Below are positions 54,966 to 64,000 of a stretch of DNA of 64,000 nt, in pieces. Below the pieces are notes generated by a model. That model ran no database searches. It had not been told where the DNA came from and saw only the letters and a list, made by a program, of their open reading frames with translations. The translations under genes and the position numbers were made by a program. Position 1 is the stretch's first letter. Each line of letters opens with the position of its first letter. Location: NCBI RefSeq assembly GCF_013426205.1, contig NC_089424.1, forward strand, positions 310,001 through 374,000, read 5' to 3'. The stretch comes from Metarhizium brunneum (Eukaryota > Ascomycota > Sordariomycetes > Hypocreales > Clavicipitaceae).

Positions 54966-55431
54966 ATGCATTCTCTTGCCTTCCTTGCTACTCTACTTAT
55001 CCCCCTTGCAGCAGCAGCACCCGAGGTGGCTGCTTCCCCTGCCCCTGAGGCTGCTGGCGACGCCACCATCTATGATGGTAACAACTTCAGCGGGCAGAGC
55101 CAAAATATCCCAGTGAATGGAGTCTGTGTGAACCTAGGACCTCCTTTGTGAGCACACAATTCCATAGCCTGCCAACTACTATTATGCTGATATGTAGATA
55201 GCACCGACCGAGGCATTAACTCCATCAGACTAGCGGCTTCGGGCGAACATTGCAACATTCACGGGTATGTAATAAATTCATAAATCATATATCACACCCT
55301 CTTATCGTTCCGCCTGACTCATACGAAAAAGCCGATCAAACTGTGCGGGCTCTTCCTATACGGTCTATGAGAGCCAGCGGTACATGCACAATGTGGCATA
55401 CTCTATTCGCTGCCTCCGGGGCTCTTTTTAA
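54966..55431 (+). CDS. Small secreted beta/gamma-crystallin-like (I36-type) protein
   Basis: Exons 54966-55147, 55202-55264 and 55332-55431, 114 residues. A signal peptide (MHSLAFLATLLIPLAAAAP) and an Ala/Pro-rich propeptide precede one domain. That domain has ATIYDGNNFSGQSQNI, the Greek-key signature YxxxxFxG, then four Cys (GVCVNL, EHCNI, SNCAG, IRCLR) and the second-half motif INSIRLAA. This resembles microbial crystallin-like proteins and peptidase inhibitor family I36 (the Streptomyces metalloproteinase inhibitor fold). All three splice junctions restore Cys- and Tyr-bearing strands, which supports the model. Role open: inhibitor, wall protein or effector. Confidence 0.72.
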
Positions 55432-56101
55432 ATTCCAAGACGGCCGAGAAGCTGGGGGAGCCGTTCCTTGGCCATTTTTACTTTTGAAAATTTGGTCTTT
55501 GGCGGGCACCATTAACCAGCGAGGGTGATGATGGTTACTTTCGTTTTGGGCCGGTGAAGCTACTTTAAAACTTGGCTCAATCAACTACACTTTTTGCTAC
55601 AAATAACATCTGTTCGGGAGAATAGCGACTAGTATAGTTAGTTATTACCTTGAAACATTTGATTTATAACTCCTCGCACGTCAATATTTTGGGTTGAAAT
55701 ACATTTTAACCCAATATAGTTAGAAAGTGCATGTGTGACCATGTTTCTGCCGCTGGATATTGCAGCTGTCTTTGTTGTGATGAAGGCACATCCTCTTACC
55801 TAATTGCCTGTCTTATTCGGCTGGCATAGCTCGTCATGAGGTGGGAATTTGTCTTTTGACGGAAGAAAACGATTATGATTCTGGACTAAACTCATCTATT
55901 ATCCTCATACTGTGAAACTGAACCATGCAAACTACTCTATTTCTATCCATTGACGTATCATTGACCGGCTGACCCTAACCCTAACACACGCGCGTTAATG
56001 GAACGCCACTGCCGCCCGCGCTGGCCCTTTCACGCGGTGGCTGACTAATCCTTTCCCCGATTCTGCTGACAGAACCATCATGTCATGCTGGTCGCTTCTT
56101 C
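55432..56101. other. Convergent spacer with telomere-like motif
   Basis: 670 bp between convergent genes, AT-rich up to 55960. It contains the CCCTAA repeat listed next; no gene. Confidence 0.5.
55973..55985 (-). repeat. Interstitial telomere-like repeat
   Basis: CCCTAACCCTAAC, two telomere units in the orientation opposite to the copy at 2797-2813. Confidence 0.65.
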
Positions 56102-59100
56102 TCAAGCACCGTCAAAGACCAACAGGCTCTGGATCCTGGCTCCTCCAAAGCCGCGCCGACGCAATAGTTCCCGGCCGCGGTGAATAGGGAACTCTGCCAC
56201 AACCATGACGTCGACCTTGTCAGCACTGATTCCGGCTTCGTCTAGAAGCTGCAGCACCGCACAAAGCGTCTTCCCAGTGGCAAGCACATCGTCCACCACG
56301 ACGACGGACGTGCCTCTTGGGAATATGTTTAGGCCCACCTCTATCCCTTTCTCCCCCGCATCGTGAGAGGCGCAGGATGAGATGTGTGACGATGATTTGC
56401 GGACGGAAATCGTGGGAGGAGGGAGTTTGCCAGCTTCGCGAATCAAGGCCAGGGACGCGCCGACACGCAAGGCTGAGGCTGACGCATAGACAAAGCCGCC
56501 AACCTCGCAACACGCTACCAAATCAACTTTGGCCCAGTCACCCGTGAAGTGAGCTTGCAGCAGGGACGTGCACAAGCCCAGCCCGCCTGGCTGCTGAGAG
56601 ATGTCAAGCACGTGGCGGAATTCGATACCTGGACGTGGGAAGCCAGGCACTGGGCGTACCATGCTGGCCAGTCGCTGTAGGTTCTCGTGGAAGAAGGCAA
56701 GCAGATGGGTTTGGGCAAATTTCTTGGCCGCCTCATTGCCAGTCAAATCATTGTGGAAGAGCAAACTGGGTGGGTAGCACTCCGTGCCGTCGTCATTGTC
56801 GCCGCTGATTCGGCAGCTTCCACGAGCCCGTCGCGTTTCATTACTAGCTTGAATTCTGACCTCGAGCAGTCTGCTGCTTGGCACCAAGTGCGAAAAGGCT
56901 GCGACGGGTGCCTTGTCCCTCATTCCTGTGATGAGCAGCACGTCCATATCCATGGCGTCTTTCACCGCATTTAGAAAATGCTCCTCCCGCAGCTGAGGTC
57001 GATGGCGTAGCTGTTCCTGGAAGAATGCCGTCAACGCAGCCCGGTGTTGTTCTTTGTAGCGTCGGTCCCGAAGCAGGCGCTGGAGATTGGCCCCAGTAGC
57101 CTCTGCATATTCTCGCTTGGTCGTGTCGCCGATGGCGATTACGCGTGCTGTGAGCTTCGTGGAGGCACAGCTGGTGATGACGGAGACCCAGGTGTCGGCG
57201 CAATAATCCTTGCCTGCGCAGCTTTCGCCAGTAACGAGAATGATGAGCGTCGGCGCCATTGGTGCTTTGACTAGTGGACAAGTGTAAGCCAGGACCTTTC
57301 GCGGATCCGAGATCTGCTTGAGGCGGATCAGGCGCGGCCGGTTTGGACCGAAAGCTTTGGCTGCCAAAGCGGCATCTCTGGGGTCCGGCCCCAGGTCGGC
57401 ACCGTAGACCCCGCTGCTCAAGGGCAATAACTCTGCGGCGACGTTGTACACCCATTGTACGGCAGCTTGAACAGCTTCGGTTCCATCTTGGTCGCGGGAC
57501 CAGACGCCAGTCACAACGCAAGCAAAATCCCAGTCGCGACAACCGAAAGCAGTGGTGTCAGCTGCTACGTCGCAGACTGCTCCGCCGCCTTGCAGAAGAT
57601 GGAGATAGCAGAGCGGCGAGGGACGAGTCTTAATTGCTGTCACCAAGATTTCGATCATGCTGGCTTCCCCGATATGTTTGAGGAACAAGCATCGCTTGAA
57701 TGACGAGGTCTTGCTGCCGCCATGCCCACCATGCATGCCAGACATATACATTTCCGCCTCAAACAAACCGACGCCATTCACAGTATTGTAATTGTCTTCG
57801 GGTCCAAAAAGTCTACTCATGGGCGTGGGCGTGTGTGTCTGCGCTCCGAAGGCAAGCTTATTAGCTGTGGAAGATTCGATCATGGAAACGCCGAGGCACA
57901 GCATGTCCCTTTCCCAATAGAGATACGCATCTACAGAAGAATTTCGCGGGGACTTGGCGGCGACCAATTTATCGAAATCACCTAGTTTGAGTTGCGCTTC
58001 GCGCCTGTCGCTTAGTGGAATAACCCAATTTCGGATCGAGTAGACTGGAGCCAGGCAAGCCTTGAAAGTAACGCTTATTACGACACCAAAGTTGGTCCCA
58101 GCTCCTTTCATCGCCCATAATAGATCGTCTTCGTTATCCGGACACACAGCATCGATCGGCCGGTGTTGGCTAGGCACCCTGCCGATGCAGAGGACGCGAC
58201 CATTGGCGACGCTGACCATGACGGCACCAACGATGGCATCGCACGCGAGTCCATGAAGCCGAGCCAGGTGCCCAATACCGCCCTGTAGCCACAGCCCTGC
58301 GCCTAGGCTTGGGCGCGCACCCATGGGCACAGTCAGGCCCGCTGCCATGGCCTTGCGGACAATGTCCCCGGTCTTGCAGCCGGCCTGGGCAACAACCAAG
58401 AAACCGGAGTCGATGTTAGGTCCGGATCCTCCCTCGCCCCTGGCTTGGACAATGTGTACTTGGTCAAACGCGCCCATGTCGATGGAGACGACGTTGGGCC
58501 AGAGGCAATGGCCGCTATGACCCCCGCTGATTACGGTCAGGCCGACGCCGTGATCCAAAGCCCAACAGACGCACTGCTGCACGTGTCGAATATCGGTCGG
58601 CCTAACGATGGAGGCCGGACGGCGGAGGCGAGCCTGGCGGTTTTTCGCTCCATCTCCGGATCCCAATGGCACCTGCGACGTCAGTTCTGTGAGCGCTGTC
58701 GCATGCCGAGTAAAGGCCGCCATGATTTCGGGCGAGCTGAATAGGAGCTGGTCTTGACGGCCTTGCTCACGATGGCCCAAAGTGCGGCACACCTTGCGCC
58801 ACTCGGCTCGGGTGGACTTGTCCGCGTGCTCATCCTGCATGGCAAATCCTGCGATAAAAGGGGCAAAGCGGTCGAGCACCATGTCGTCATCCGCCACGCG
58901 AGTGACTCCAGTAGGGAAAGAAGTCGTTTGGTGGCACGTCAAGCCGTCGAGGTGCAAGGTCTCTTCGCGATGGAAAACCACCACGAATCCGCTGCCTGGC
59001 CGCTCAACAAGCAATTCCAGCGCCCGTTTGATGAAACTGCTTTTCGGTTTCATGCCGTACATGCTATGGCAGAATAGGATGACGTTAAACTTGTCGGCGC

Positions 59101-59557
59101 CGTCACCCATACCGTCGAAGCTGGCGCTGCTGTCCACAACAAATGGAATCCGATGGATGTCAGGCGGGCTTTCTAGACAGGGGAGTGGGATCCCTGTCCC
59201 CGAGGTAGAGTAAAGCCATTCCTTCAACCTTAAAACGAACAGTTCATTTGGTTCAAACGCAGAGTATCTCCCGATGCTACGTCTCATATAGCTGGGCAAA
59301 TATCCAAGTACGCTTTTAGGCCCGGGTCCGACTTCCAGCACCGAGATCCGGACACCCGAGTTAACAAGAGGGTCTAGCAGTGCAGATAGTTGAGGAATGA
59401 TGAAGTCTTGGTACGTCAGCCATCCGGAACTCCCTAAGAGGATCTCGAAGCCAGCACTATACTGTGAGTCAGACAACGGCCTCTTCGCGGATGATGACGT
59501 TGTCGTTGCCTTATGCCTAAGGCTCTGTTTGAGGGACTCAAGAGTGGTCAATGCCAT
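56102..59557 (-). CDS. Four-domain fusion: SAM methyltransferase / BBE-type FAD oxidase / PMVK-like kinase / APRT-like phosphoribosyltransferase
   Basis: 1151 residues in a single exon; ATG at 59557. Domain 1 (about 30-300): class I methyltransferase, SAM motif SVLEVGPGPKSVLG at 72-85. Domain 2 (about 310-765): FAD-linked oxidase with GGHSGH at 345-350, whose first His (347) is the usual site of covalent FAD attachment, and GAGLWLQGGIGHLARLHGL. The BBE C-terminal FGPNRPRL...DPRKVL closes it. Domain 3 (about 770-935): P-loop VTGESCAGKDYC, then KREYAEATGANLQRLLRDRRYKE, the pattern of animal-type phosphomevalonate kinase. Domain 4 (about 965-1151): VPGFPRPGIEFRHVLDI and the PRPP loop VVVVDDVLATGKT of adenine phosphoribosyltransferase. 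All key loops look intact. It is transcribed divergently from GTP cyclohydrolase I. Together the domains suggest methylation, oxidation, phosphorylation and ribosylphosphate transfer on one scaffold, probably on a purine- or pterin-like base; the product is unknown. Confidence 0.88.
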   Translation of the reverse strand: MALTTLESLKQSLRHKATTTSSSAKRPLSDSQYSAGFEILLGSSGWLTYQDFIIPQLSALLDPLVNSGVRISVLEVGPGPKSVLGYLPSYMRRSIGRYSAFEPNELFVLRLKEWLYSTSGTGIPLPCLESPPDIHRIPFVVDSSASFDGMGDGADKFNVILFCHSMYGMKPKSSFIKRALELLVERPGSGFVVVFHREETLHLDGLTCHQTTSFPTGVTRVADDDMVLDRFAPFIAGFAMQDEHADKSTRAEWRKVCRTLGHREQGRQDQLLFSSPEIMAAFTRHATALTELTSQVPLGSGDGAKNRQARLRRPASIVRPTDIRHVQQCVCWALDHGVGLTVISGGHSGHCLWPNVVSIDMGAFDQVHIVQARGEGGSGPNIDSGFLVVAQAGCKTGDIVRKAMAAGLTVPMGARPSLGAGLWLQGGIGHLARLHGLACDAIVGAVMVSVANGRVLCIGRVPSQHRPIDAVCPDNEDDLLWAMKGAGTNFGVVISVTFKACLAPVYSIRNWVIPLSDRREAQLKLGDFDKLVAAKSPRNSSVDAYLYWERDMLCLGVSMIESSTANKLAFGAQTHTPTPMSRLFGPEDNYNTVNGVGLFEAEMYMSGMHGGHGGSKTSSFKRCLFLKHIGEASMIEILVTAIKTRPSPLCYLHLLQGGGAVCDVAADTTAFGCRDWDFACVVTGVWSRDQDGTEAVQAAVQWVYNVAAELLPLSSGVYGADLGPDPRDAALAAKAFGPNRPRLIRLKQISDPRKVLAYTCPLVKAPMAPTLIILVTGESCAGKDYCADTWVSVITSCASTKLTARVIAIGDTTKREYAEATGANLQRLLRDRRYKEQHRAALTAFFQEQLRHRPQLREEHFLNAVKDAMDMDVLLITGMRDKAPVAAFSHLVPSSRLLEVRIQASNETRRARGSCRISGDNDDGTECYPPSLLFHNDLTGNEAAKKFAQTHLLAFFHENLQRLASMVRPVPGFPRPGIEFRHVLDISQQPGGLGLCTSLLQAHFTGDWAKVDLVACCEVGGFVYASASALRVGASLALIREAGKLPPPTISVRKSSSHISSCASHDAGEKGIEVGLNIFPRGTSVVVVDDVLATGKTLCAVLQLLDEAGISADKVDVMVVAEFPIHRGRELLRRRGFGGARIQSLLVFDGA

Positions 59558-60282
59558 TTTTTTGGATTGTGTGTATGTATGTATCTCATGAAATGATGGA
59601 TGCCGATGTAGTGTTGTCTTTTTTGAGTTGATCGTGGACCTACTTATAGACTCAGCGCGGGGATTGCAGCGGTTTGTTGGAATCCTATTTGGGGATTCTC
59701 CATGCCACACAAACTACGTGGGTTCCCAATGTGACACACGCCCAAAGTGACGCATATATATACCCGCCGTGTACTACAAATACGTGCTGTTACATCCGCC
59801 TCGGGATGTGTGTCAACAGTTGGCTATTGATCTTGTCCCACCCCTATCTGCTCCTAATGCAAAGCATCACGGCATAGCAATCAGAGATAGTGCAACGTCT
59901 GCACGCGAGCGGGAATTCATGAAACAAGGACCATTGGCAAAAGCTCGCTAACAGCGGCGTGATGACGGATATGTAGAGCTTCGGCCTGCTATCTCTACCC
60001 GCCGGTGACTCAGTGGCTAATCATGTCGTTGCCAGCGAGTATTACAGAGCACAGAATCATGTTTTGTGATCAAACGTGATGAAACAAGACTCAGTCCATT
60101 CGGTTTTCCATTGATCTTTAGCCTCTGCTTTCTTAATCTCCCCAGGCTCGAGCCACCAAAATCTACCGCCTGATCCCGATGACTGATGGTAATCGCGCCT
60201 CTTTTTCTTCATGTTTTCACCTATAATATGCTTTCTCGTCCCCTCTGTTATTTCTCAGATATCAGACCTTGCTCCGTGCCTC
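59558..60282. promoter_or_regulatory. Divergent promoter between the fusion enzyme and GTP cyclohydrolase I
   Basis: 725 bp separate the two start codons, so both genes may share control elements. It includes a pyrimidine-rich leader before the cyclohydrolase. An ATG at 60179 followed by a GTAATC donor and an ATATCAG acceptor could be an alternative 5' exon of that gene. No known factor site was recognised with certainty. Confidence 0.5.
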
Positions 60283-61151
60283 ATGGATCAATCCAAGAAG
60301 CAACTCCTCAGCATGGCCAGTATGTCCGACTCCTCAAACATCAGCATCGATTCTGCTTGCAGGAGCACGGATATTGAGCGTGATGAGATTTTGCCCACTG
60401 CTGATGCCTCCATTGTTCACGCGCCCCTTACCGACCGCCCTGTCAACGCTTCCGAGAAGTGCCGTAATGGTTTCGGAAAAGTCGCCCGCGGCCGCGTTGA
60501 TGAAACGCCCGAGCAAGTTGAAGCCCGGCTGGAGACGATGCGTAGCGCCGTGAGGACGCTGCTCGAATGCTTGGGCGAGGACCCCAACCGTGAGGGCCTG
60601 TTGGCCACGCCGTCACGGTATGCGAATGCGCTGTTATTCTTAACCAAGGGCTACCGGATCAACGTGGATGATGTTGTCAATAATGCACTCTTTGACGAGG
60701 AGCATCATGAGATGGTCATTGTCAAGGGCATTAAGTTCTCCAGCTTATGCGAGCACCATGTTCTGCCCTTTACGGGAAAGGTAAGTCTTTTTGAAATCCA
60801 TATTTCCCTCAGCCTGAAACTTATGAAAACGCTCAGATTCACATCGGTTATATCCCCTCTGGGAAAGTCATTGGGCTCTCTAAGCTCCCCCGCATAGCCG
60901 AGATGTTCTCGCGACGGCTGCAGATTCAGGAACGCCTCACTAAACAGGTCGCTGATGCTATCATGGAAATCATCGGCCCTCGGGGCGTCGCGGTTGTCAT
61001 AGAGTCGTCCCACATGTGCATGGAGATGCGTGGCGTTGAAAAGACAGGCACCGCTACTATCACGAGCTGCGTCCTCGGCTGCTTTAAGGAGGAGAAGAAG
61101 ACGCGTGACGAGTTCATGAGCCTTATTGGCGTAAATAAAACAGGAGTATAG
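60283..61151 (+). CDS. GTP cyclohydrolase I
   Basis: Exons 60283-60780 and 60837-61151, 270 residues; one 56-nt intron. The start is uncertain: the frame is open upstream to 60211, and a small 5' exon at 60179 is also possible. After a variable N-terminus of about 85 residues, the conserved core has [18 protein letters not shown] and [10 protein letters not shown] (zinc ligands Cys and His). It continues with [22 protein letters not shown] across the splice, [14 protein letters not shown], and [13 protein letters not shown] with the second zinc Cys. All catalytic residues I can place are present. The enzyme converts GTP to 7,8-dihydroneopterin triphosphate, the entry to folate, biopterin and many deazapurines. 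Fungi need one copy for folate, so this may be the housekeeping gene or a pathway-specific paralogue. Confidence 0.92.
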
Positions 61152-61546
61152 CCATAAGCTGGAACTATTCGTTCCGCCCCCTATACAGAAGACAGGGCGC
61201 GGGTGTACAGCGGTATAGTTGGTTAGAAGAAGAATATGACGAATGAATATTCCAAAATCTTCTTTCTCGGTTAGATTTCTAGCCTACGCCATTTCTACCT
61301 GAGCCGTGTCCGAGTTGGAGGCTTTGGGCTTCTGTAGTCCAAGCAATGTGTCACGTGATATCTTAGCATTGGATCTGGGGGCGCAACCAAAGCTAGAAGA
61401 TACTCCGTACGTTCTAATCGTGCCAGGCCCCACTATTTTTTGGGTCAAGCAAGGCTCTCACCACCAGAAGTGATTTTTTTTTTTCGCGAAGCCAACTTTG
61501 CGAATACCACCAATCTGCTCGATACGCCGCCGAAACCACGATCACA
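61152..61546. other. Spacer between GTP cyclohydrolase I and GMP synthase
   Basis: 395 bp, both genes on the plus strand. It includes TACTCCGTACG near 61402 and a T run near 61477. It is the likely promoter of the GMP synthase gene. Confidence 0.5.
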
Positions 61547-64000
61547 ATGGCTTCTACCCTTGAGGCCGAGGCGCCTCATAATAGCTTCGACGTATGTACC
61601 GCCACTACCCCGCAGAAGCCCAGAATTTGAGCCTCGAGGCTCCCTGGTCGTCACTCTACACAATTTGCGATTGGTCACTGCAGACAGAGCGTGCAGGCGC
61701 AATCGATGTACAGCCGTAAGACGAGTGGACTAGCTGACCCTGTCTTTCCAGACCATACTTGTACTCGACTTTGGCTCACAAACTAGCCATCTTATTCTGC
61801 GACGAATTCGGGCTCTCGGCGTCTTCGCTGAGCTACTTCCGTGTACCACCAAGGTCGCTGAGCTGCCATGGAAGCCTAAAGGAATTATCTTCTCTGGAGG
61901 TGTGAAATGTCTGGATGTATGGTTTGTGCCGAGGTCTGACTGAGCTACTAGGTCCTTCCTCTGTGTATGACGAGGGCTCACCCCGTACGGTTTCCGTCTC
62001 CCAAACGTCCTGTTACATGTACTCATATGTGTAGATGTTGATCCTGCTGTTTTTGAACTCGATGTACCCATTCTGTGAGTGTTTTCTACCCTCCTCTCCA
62101 GTCTCTGAACCTAGACTAACACGGATGTACAGTGGTATTTGGTGCGGCTTGCTCCAACACCCATCGATATACGCTGTGACACTGACATGAATGACCCCAG
62201 CTATGGTTGCCAGGAGATCGCTTGGCGAATCGACTCAAGTAATGTTGTTCGCGGAGAGGCACGAGGTTTGTGACGTTTGAAACGCCATCTAAAATTGCTT
62301 CTGACCCTTCTCCATAGAGTATGGCCACGCGGACGTCACCATCACCAAAGTTAACAGTCATGCCGACCGGCTTTTCGCTGGGTTGGGAGACGGAATTTCT
62401 GTCTTCATGTCCCACTTTGACAAGCTAATTAACTTACCCAAGGCGAGTGAAATTTCATTCGAATTTTTGGAAAACCTATTAACTCTAGCAGGACTTTGTG
62501 GTCATTGCTGCTACCAAGAACTCAGAGTTCGCCGGCATCGCCCACGAGGAGAAGCCTATCTTTGGTTTGTCTTCCCTAAGCTACTTTTGTAGCTCAGTAA
62601 GACAGGATGCTGACAAGGTGACTAGGTGTCCAGTTTCATCCTGAGCTCGAACACGTTGGTCCCTCCAAGGCCTTACATTAGAACTCCCTCTGACATTCGG
62701 ATCTAGACCCCCCGCGGAACCGATCTCCTGTTCAACTTCAGCGTCAACATCTGCGGAGCTCAACCAAATTGGAAAATGGGCAACTTTGTTGAGATCGAGA
62801 TCGCTCGCATCCGGGATCTTGTCGGTCCCAAAGCTCTCGTCATTGGTGGCGTAAGTGGCGGTGTCGACAGCACTGTTGGAGCGACTTTGATGCGTGAAGC
62901 CATTGGGGACCGCTTCATCGCGATAGGTATCAACAACGGCTGTATGCGTCTCAACGAGTTCGAGGAGGTCAAGAAGAATCTCAGGGACCACCTCGGTATC
63001 AATCTCACCGTTGTCGATGCCGGCGAGCTGTTCTTGAGTCGTCTTGCGGGTGTTACCGATCCCGAAAAGAAGCGAAAGATAATTGGGTCGACATGTACGT
63101 ACCCCGAGTTATCTTGGATGGGTTCGCGACAATGATACTGACTACACTAAAGTCATCGATGTGTTCGAGAAAGAGGCTATAAGGGTACGCCCCTTTCTCT
63201 GAAGGTGTGGAAGACTTACTAACATGGCCCACAAGATCGAAAAAGAAGCAGAAAACACACCAAATTCCGGGAAGGTCGAGTGGTTCTTGCAAGGGACACT
63301 ATACCCTGATGTGTAAGTCGTTGAGCTTGTAATGTCGAGTCCAAGCTAATAGCATTTCAGTATCGAGTCGCTCTCGTGGAGAGGACCCTCAGCGACAATC
63401 AAGAGTAAGCCGATAAAGCTCGGTGAAGTCATGCAAGAACTGGACACCAGCTAACTAGAGATAGCTCACCATAATACTGGCGGTTTGCCAGAGGTAAGAA
63501 AAATCAACGTCTATGATTCACTTCCCAGTTACTTACCAGCATGTAGCGAATGATGAATGGCGTAAGTCGAACACCGCTTAGCCAAGTTTGATCACACTGA
63601 CTAAGACGGTTTATTTAGCAAGGCTTACGTGTAAGTACACTTCTATCTTTTATCACGTAGTGAAATCTAACATGACTTCTATCACAGCTTATCGAGCCGC
63701 TCAGACTTTTATTTGTGAGTCTTATACTTGTCTTAAATACGCCTGGTCATGGAGCTAACAATACTGCACAGAAAGATGAAGTGAGGGTAAGTTAATAAGG
63801 GGGTAAATCTTGACGTCACTTTTACTAAGCTTTGCAGGCAATTGGTCGGCAACTCGGCATACACGAGTCGCTGGTAAACAGGCACCCATTCCCCGGGTAT
63901 GTTGATCACCCTCGAGCTTCTCATTCTCCTTGCCAGCTTTGAAGCGTCTGCTAACTAAATCGAATGCAGACCGGGAATTGCCATCAGGATTCTTGGCGAC
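61547..64000 (+). CDS. GMP synthase (glutamine-hydrolysing), intron-dense, 3' end beyond window
   Basis: At least 20 exons in 2.45 kb: 61547-61591, 61752-61899, 61952-61984, 62035-62074, 62133-62141, 62201-62265, 62318-62442, 62492-62564, 62626-62654, 62707-63094, 63153-63184, 63236-63312, 63361-63404, 63475-63493, 63547-63561, 63619-63630, 63688-63714, 63772-63786, 63838-63896 and 63970 onward. About 428 residues are visible. The class I glutamine amidotransferase domain has its nucleophile in GICYGCQE; the Cys codon is split TG|C by an intron after a 9-nt exon. VQFHPELEH supplies catalytic His and Glu. The ATP-pyrophosphatase domain has the P-loop SGGVDST, then DPEKKRKIIGSTF, and the GMP synthase dimerisation block LIEPLRLLFKDEVR and HPFPGPG. 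It aminates XMP to GMP. Intron 62443-62491 starts with GC. The spliced frame is intact throughout, so it looks functional despite the fragmentation. Confidence 0.88.

Follow-up and report, generated by a model that had tools for sequence, protein, structure and literature searches.

Gene Content of the Locus

Three neighboring genes of Metarhizium brunneum, encoding a GMP synthase, a GTP cyclohydrolase I (GCH1), and a large four-domain fusion protein, raise the question of whether they form a pathway from GTP to a modified nucleotide, as was proposed in a sequence-only reading of this locus. The window, that is, the whole analyzed stretch of 64,000 nucleotides, is C3:310001-374000 of a 37.8-Mb genome in 7 contigs. 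The adjacency of the three genes is confirmed by their open frames, spliced models, and domain matches, and the start codons of the fusion gene and GCH1 bracket the divergent region between them, as described earlier. The features, in window coordinates, are listed below.

56102-59557 including stop, minus strand: four-domain fusion gene, a single open frame of 1151 aa, no intron
58658..59557, minus strand: SAM-dependent methyltransferase domain of the fusion, histamine/nicotinamide N-methyltransferase-like fold, residues 1-300 (weak sequence match and low-confidence predicted fold)
57272..58660, minus strand: FAD oxidase domain, 6-hydroxy-D-nicotine oxidase/EncM/BBE-like, residues 300-762 (FAD_binding_4, PF01565, E 4.6e-13)
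56753..57265, minus strand: P-loop kinase domain, phosphomevalonate-kinase-like with altered substrate residues, residues 765-935 (PF04275, E 8.9e-23)
56105..56731, minus strand: adenine-phosphoribosyltransferase-like domain, residues 943-1151 (Pribosyltran, E 3.4e-16)
59558-60282, no strand: divergent intergenic region of the fusion gene and GCH1, 725 bp between two start codons
60283..61151 (60283-60780 + 60837-61151 including stop), plus strand: GCH1, divergent second copy, 270 aa, one intron 60781-60836, spliced model
61547..64000, continuing past the window end to C3:374497, plus strand: GMP synthase with many introns, flanking and outside the proposed pathway

Shared promoter elements of the fusion gene and GCH1 were considered and set aside, as the repeat search in the 725-bp region gave just two short direct-repeat families and reported no inverted repeats. 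A small separate gene at 54966, encoding a secreted-protein-like product, is not counted in the pathway.

GMP Synthase and GTP Cyclohydrolase I

PF00958 has one match in the genome (two candidates scored), located in the GMP synthase gene of the window. The hand-made GMP synthase protein gave 11 genome matches, ten of them its own exons and one a weak C1 match in a GATase frame; the 12 GATase rows of the genome belong to several genes. The catalytic-cysteine region, read by hand, is GIC-YGCQEIAW across an intron. As the sole copy found in the genome by both searches, this GMP synthase is most simply a housekeeping enzyme, and the suggestion that it is a cluster paralogue providing supply or self-protection was rejected. 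The parallel that had been drawn with bacterial deazapurine clusters through a GMP enzyme is also argued against, since according to excerpts of PMC6112128 the tubercidin and toyocamycin clusters carry a GMP reductase, not a GMP synthase as in the window.

GCH1 presents a different picture. The window protein contains an essentially whole PF01227 domain, spanning 2-178 of its 179 positions (E 2.9e-75), and matches 15 PDB sequences, all named GTP cyclohydrolase I. It contains the CEHH and SSH.C motifs, which we take to be the zinc and catalytic motifs of this enzyme, aligned with those of the other M. brunneum copy and of the Rutstroemia protein discussed below. Of the three GCH1 matches in the genome, two are the exons of the window gene, and the third is a gene with no intron (C3:933251-933784), located 0.56 Mb from the window copy. 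Thus, whereas GMP synthase occurs as the sole housekeeping copy, GCH1 does not. The cores of the two M. brunneum GCH1 copies are 65.6% identical, and both group with the Chaetomium and Scytalidium sequences in a four-member set with support of 98/94. The end branch of the window copy is 0.85 in the tree of 18 GCH1 sequences, compared with 0.29 for the other copy, which points to a divergent paralogue in the window and a housekeeping enzyme elsewhere. Branch length alone is no proof of a new role, since the Chaetomium GCH1 is long-branched too (0.74).

Domains and Conserved Residues of the Fusion Protein

The four-domain composition described earlier holds. P-mevalo_kinase, Pribosyltran, and FAD_binding_4 exceed their Pfam cut-offs, and sequence evidence for the methyltransferase part is weak, with E 0.058 in the window protein and E<=0.1 in 22 of the 30 aligned rows (best 3.4e-5). 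Its predicted fold agrees with the assignment in a model of low confidence, the putative closest solved structures being HNMT/NNMT; the structure model of the whole fusion (mean pLDDT 41) was left unused. Active-site residues are conserved in all four domains across 159 aligned rows.

The second domain fits a FAD_binding_4/BBE-like oxidase, as PF01565 is over its cut-off and H347, at the position of the putative FAD-linking histidine, is retained in 157 of 159 rows, the other two having an R and a gap. The BBE domain is seen at E<=0.1 in 26 of 30 aligned rows, the best PDB sequence match is 2bvf, a 6-hydroxy-D-nicotine oxidase, and every row (159/159) has Arg at the position opposite a 5k8e Cys. 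In the kinase domain, G777, G782, K783, and D784 are invariant (159/159). The K-R-K stretch of the solved phosphomevalonate kinase is replaced with E-S-C in the fusion family (E in 145, S in 156, and C in 134 of 159 rows), and D881 (155 D, 4 E) stands where the solved enzyme has the second residue of an arginine pair. For the phosphoribosyltransferase domain, all PDB sequences at E<=1e-10 are named APRT (16/16); D1089 is present in 158 of 159 rows (one E), and D1090, G1095, T1097, and E1073 in all 159.

APRT and phosphomevalonate kinase are the solved families nearest to the two C-terminal domains, but the fusion differs from both in scoring under the NCBIfam equivalog cut-offs (42.8 bits against 188.15 for the animal-type phosphomevalonate kinase, TIGR01223, and at best 88.5 bits against 125 for adenine phosphoribosyltransferase), and from the kinase also in the substrate residues. 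The closest solved relatives of the fusion include enzymes of small N-heterocycles, namely 6-hydroxynicotine oxidase, APRT, and, putatively, HNMT/NNMT.

Linkage of GCH1 to the Fusion Elsewhere

In Rutstroemia, a predicted protein of 1404 aa (P0083) begins with GCH1 and continues with the entire fusion, in tandem and not divergent. GCH1 adjoins the fusion in two fungi of different classes and in differing orientation. Two genes may have been merged in the P0083 model, in which case GCH1 and the fusion are still neighbors in Rutstroemia. The search with the GCH1 part of P0083 retrieved 18 long GCH1-bearing proteins of 772-2457 aa, one of them P0083 itself; the fusion Pfam domains were seen in none of the other 17.

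A clade uniting the window and Rutstroemia GCH1 copies is supported neither by the tree nor by the identities: the Rutstroemia GCH1 core is 61.7% identical to the window copy and 67.2% to the other M. brunneum copy. Given this lack of support for sisterhood, the two linkages possibly result from separate GCH1 recruitments rather than from one inherited pair. Such recruitments, interesting if real, would weaken the simple story of a single inherited pair.

The linkage of the fusion and GCH1, with two linked cases in all, is moderately supported, and evidence that reaches beyond one neighborhood exists for this pair and not for GMP synthase. The proposal of a GTP-derived pathway is accordingly partly supported: it was half right, standing for the GCH1-fusion pair by virtue of the divergent second GCH1 and the Rutstroemia link, and losing as a member the GMP synthase, an ordinary gene beside them.

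Proposed Pterin Pathway

The best reading available, which falls a little short of an even chance, is that the fusion and the neighboring GCH1 paralogue constitute a two-gene pathway from GTP to a tailored pterin. The dedicated GCH1 would convert GTP to 7,8-dihydroneopterin triphosphate, and the side chain would be trimmed by housekeeping folate-pathway steps or phosphatases. The HNMT/NNMT-like domain would then methylate a ring nitrogen of the pterin, the FAD oxidase would oxidize the dihydropterin (C7-N8 being the probable site), and PRPP would be coupled to the product by the APRT-like domain. Either the substrate or the nucleotide may be phosphorylated by the PMK-like kinase, whose place in this order is a guess. 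We infer the pterin substrate and the order of steps as well as the product, which would most likely be an N-methylated, oxidized pterin riboside or ribotide.

The set of pterin-route enzymes in the genome narrows the candidate substrates. There were no genome matches to PTPS/QueD (PF01242, which includes the ToyB-like CPH4 synthase), for which the same search was positive in 9 of 14 prokaryotic control genomes, to QueC/ToyM (PF06508, an enzyme of preQ0-type deazapurine pathways; one candidate scored, 12 of 14 controls positive), or to PCD (three candidates scored); intron-split PTPS/QueD and PCD genes could be missed by such searches. The folate-route enzyme HPPK does occur. The FolB, or dihydroneopterin aldolase, domain gave no genome match (one candidate scored), from which no inference was drawn because fungal FolB presumably sits within a larger protein. 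PTPS/QueD, QueC, and PCD are known enzymes for two common fates of the GCH1 product. With these unmatched and HPPK present, the fusion would need folate-type or simple pterins as its substrate, and a pterin of this kind, once N-methylated, oxidized, and ribosylated, would be an asperopterin-type compound.

Judged by analogy, no known compound comes closer to the proposed product than asperopterin A, the pterin core being common to both. It is an N8-methyl, 7-oxo ribofuranoside, and these three traits would match the methyltransferase, oxidase, and phosphoribosyltransferase of the fusion. According to excerpts of the review PMC6208954, the asperopterins of Aspergillus oryzae T-17 fluoresce blue and contain a pteridine ring, and a work in its reference list describes asperopterin A as a natural isoxanthopterin glycoside. 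The producer strain is said to be unavailable. A literature search, covering its sources in part, found no description of biosynthetic genes for asperopterins. If the pterin reading is true, the locus provides candidate genes for a fungal pterin glycoside that is apparently a genetic orphan, a fungal pterin pathway that is testable with two genes in a laboratory host, and a new use of PRPP chemistry.

An asperopterin-type product, taken by itself, we regard as rather unlikely. An O-riboside-forming phosphoribosyltransferase would be unusual, and the kinase would not obviously be needed for asperopterin. A small but appreciable chance is given to the most far-reaching version, in which one polypeptide would perform the whole pterin tailoring (N-methylation, oxidation, phosphorylation, and ribosylation), fed by its own GCH1 and yielding an asperopterin-type nucleoside, and in which the module would have spread horizontally among lichens, molds, and insect pathogens as the first fungal pterin natural-product pathway.

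Alternative Explanations

The neighborhood of the two genes could be incidental. In that case the GCH1 paralogue would serve some other purpose, and the fusion would act on a purine or another base, for instance one resembling a cytokinin, a modified adenine, or a substrate of salvage. This explanation is possible, if doubtful. The phosphoribosyltransferase domain retains APRT-type motifs and has APRTs as its best matches, and APRT-like base recognition suits adenine-like bases equally well, which counts against the pterin reading. The small number of linked cases, the 17 long GCH1 proteins with no fusion domains, and the unsupported sisterhood of the two linked GCH1 copies point in the same direction. 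On the other hand, finding the same unrelated gene beside the fusion in two fungi is unlikely, though this comparison is post hoc. Alternatively, the GCH1 copy may just raise the folate or dihydropterin supply, through dosage or for antifolate tolerance, with the fusion as a passive neighbor. HPPK of the folate route fits this idea, as do the extra GCH1 genes that occur in other molds: for Penicillium solitum, Table 3 of PMC6330040 places all 4 proteins annotated with GTP cyclohydrolase I activity among those whose copy number is at least double that in P. expansum. The strong divergence of the window GCH1, unlike that of a simple dosage copy, and the Rutstroemia case make this explanation quite improbable.

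Two further routes are argued against by the enzyme content of the genome. Tetrahydrobiopterin synthesis starts with GCH1, which could thus supply this cofactor, but PTPS and PCD had no genome match (an intron-split PCD could be missed), so that this route is disfavored and highly improbable. A fungal 7-deazapurine pathway of the toyocamycin/tubercidin type would have in common with the Streptomyces clusters both GCH1 and a purine-type phosphoribosyltransferase (excerpts of PMC6112128). These clusters need QueD-like and QueE-like enzymes, the latter (QueE/ToyC) being a radical SAM enzyme, whereas the M. brunneum genome had no QueD or QueC match in searches that detected them in most prokaryotic controls, which makes a toyocamycin-like route scarcely credible. 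Of the modified-nucleotide products suggested from the sequence, the pterin version thus survives and the deazapurine version is disfavored.

The pterin pathway resembles two other systems in part. The NRPS-like-pteridine island plu2792-2799 of Photorhabdus is likewise a GCH1-bearing gene island with a pteridine product, but it is bacterial and has PTPS, a pteridine reductase, and a pyrophosphokinase (excerpts of PMC5384830); the word methyltransferase is absent from the main text of that paper. The insect isoxanthopterin branch likewise involves oxidation of a dihydropterin followed by 7-oxidation, but it employs a separate dihydropterin oxidase and xanthine dehydrogenase, and ribosylation is not mentioned in the excerpts of PMC11121863.

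Distribution and Evolution of the Fusion Family

The protein search with the fusion gave 1086 proteins at E<=0.001 out of 7993 candidates scored. The best 120 of these matches all contain the three Pfam domains and have query coverage of 87-100%, while the remaining ones may include proteins hitting a single domain. The named rows among the best 120 presumably all belong to Pezizomycotina. No description of the protein was found in a literature search, and the papers listed for GCH1 with Metarhizium showed nothing on the window GCH1. The fusion is thus apparently a member of a widespread, well-conserved, and undescribed Pezizomycotina family. Informative operons of bacterial or viral relatives were sought and given up, since viral contigs contained no relatives and the 10 pattern matches in genome contigs yielded 0 confirmed cases.

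The nearest named relative of the window fusion is that of Metarhizium humberi (94.4% over 888 columns). For comparison with fungal classes, 47 named rows were chosen, leaving out two unnamed tree rows and several further named rows; the class labels are our own assumption. For 25 of the 47, the closest row belongs to the same class; median identities are 79.7% within and 77.3% between classes. For instance, the Trichoglossum and Lepraria fusions, from different classes, are 90.9% identical, whereas those of the window and M. guizhouense, from one genus, are 78.0% identical. Against this stand other same-genus pairs that are close, as in Gaeumannomyces (92.1%), Xylaria (86.8%), and the M. humberi pair mentioned above, and the lichen rows, whose nearest row is mostly another lichen row. 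The fusion tree is star-like with short inner branches. This loose tracking of fungal classes hints at horizontal transfer, or at loss after old duplications, and unequal rates could account for a part of it. Horizontal spread, if true, would mean that a feature of the product was worth keeping across very different fungal lifestyles.

Rows of the family named MAG come from assembled metagenomes. Aspergillus chevalieri has two fusion copies, which are 86.2% identical.

The fusion family

Among 47 chosen named matches to the four-domain fusion protein, drawn from the best 120 of 1086, some pairs within a genus share only 78.0% (Metarhizium), 80.9% (Lachnellula), or 79.0% (Hyaloscypha) identity, whereas identities between classes reach 90.9% and several exceed all three of these within-genus values. 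This pattern of protein similarity points to horizontal movement of the fusion.

Other genes and open frames

Window 54966-55431 (+): small gene with introns and an apparently secreted product, read by eye
Window 61547-64000, running on past the window end (L005:1547-4497 of the genome stretch L005): GMP synthase, many small exons
L006:4329-5996 (-) of the genome stretch L006: open frame whose N-terminal part is ordered and gives way to a long Asn/Gly-rich repeat array

The small gene sits immediately past the 3' end of the fusion. Pfam searches with its first exon and with the Asn/Gly-rich open frame gave no match. The GMP synthase exons were matched as 10 separate pieces in a protein search of the genome, a many-exon structure that contrasts with the nearby single-exon fusion gene.

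GTP cyclohydrolase I in other fungi

In four fungi, the predicted GTP cyclohydrolase I (GCH1) protein (P0160, P0161, P0163, and P0173) is continued by an F-box-like stretch, by eye apparently the same neighbour in all. This shared run-on suggests that the neighbourhood of the housekeeping GCH1 gene is conserved among these fungi. Another predicted protein, P0174, combines short-chain dehydrogenase, PTPS, and GCH1 domains in one chain, a set as would be expected for one-chain tetrahydrobiopterin synthesis.
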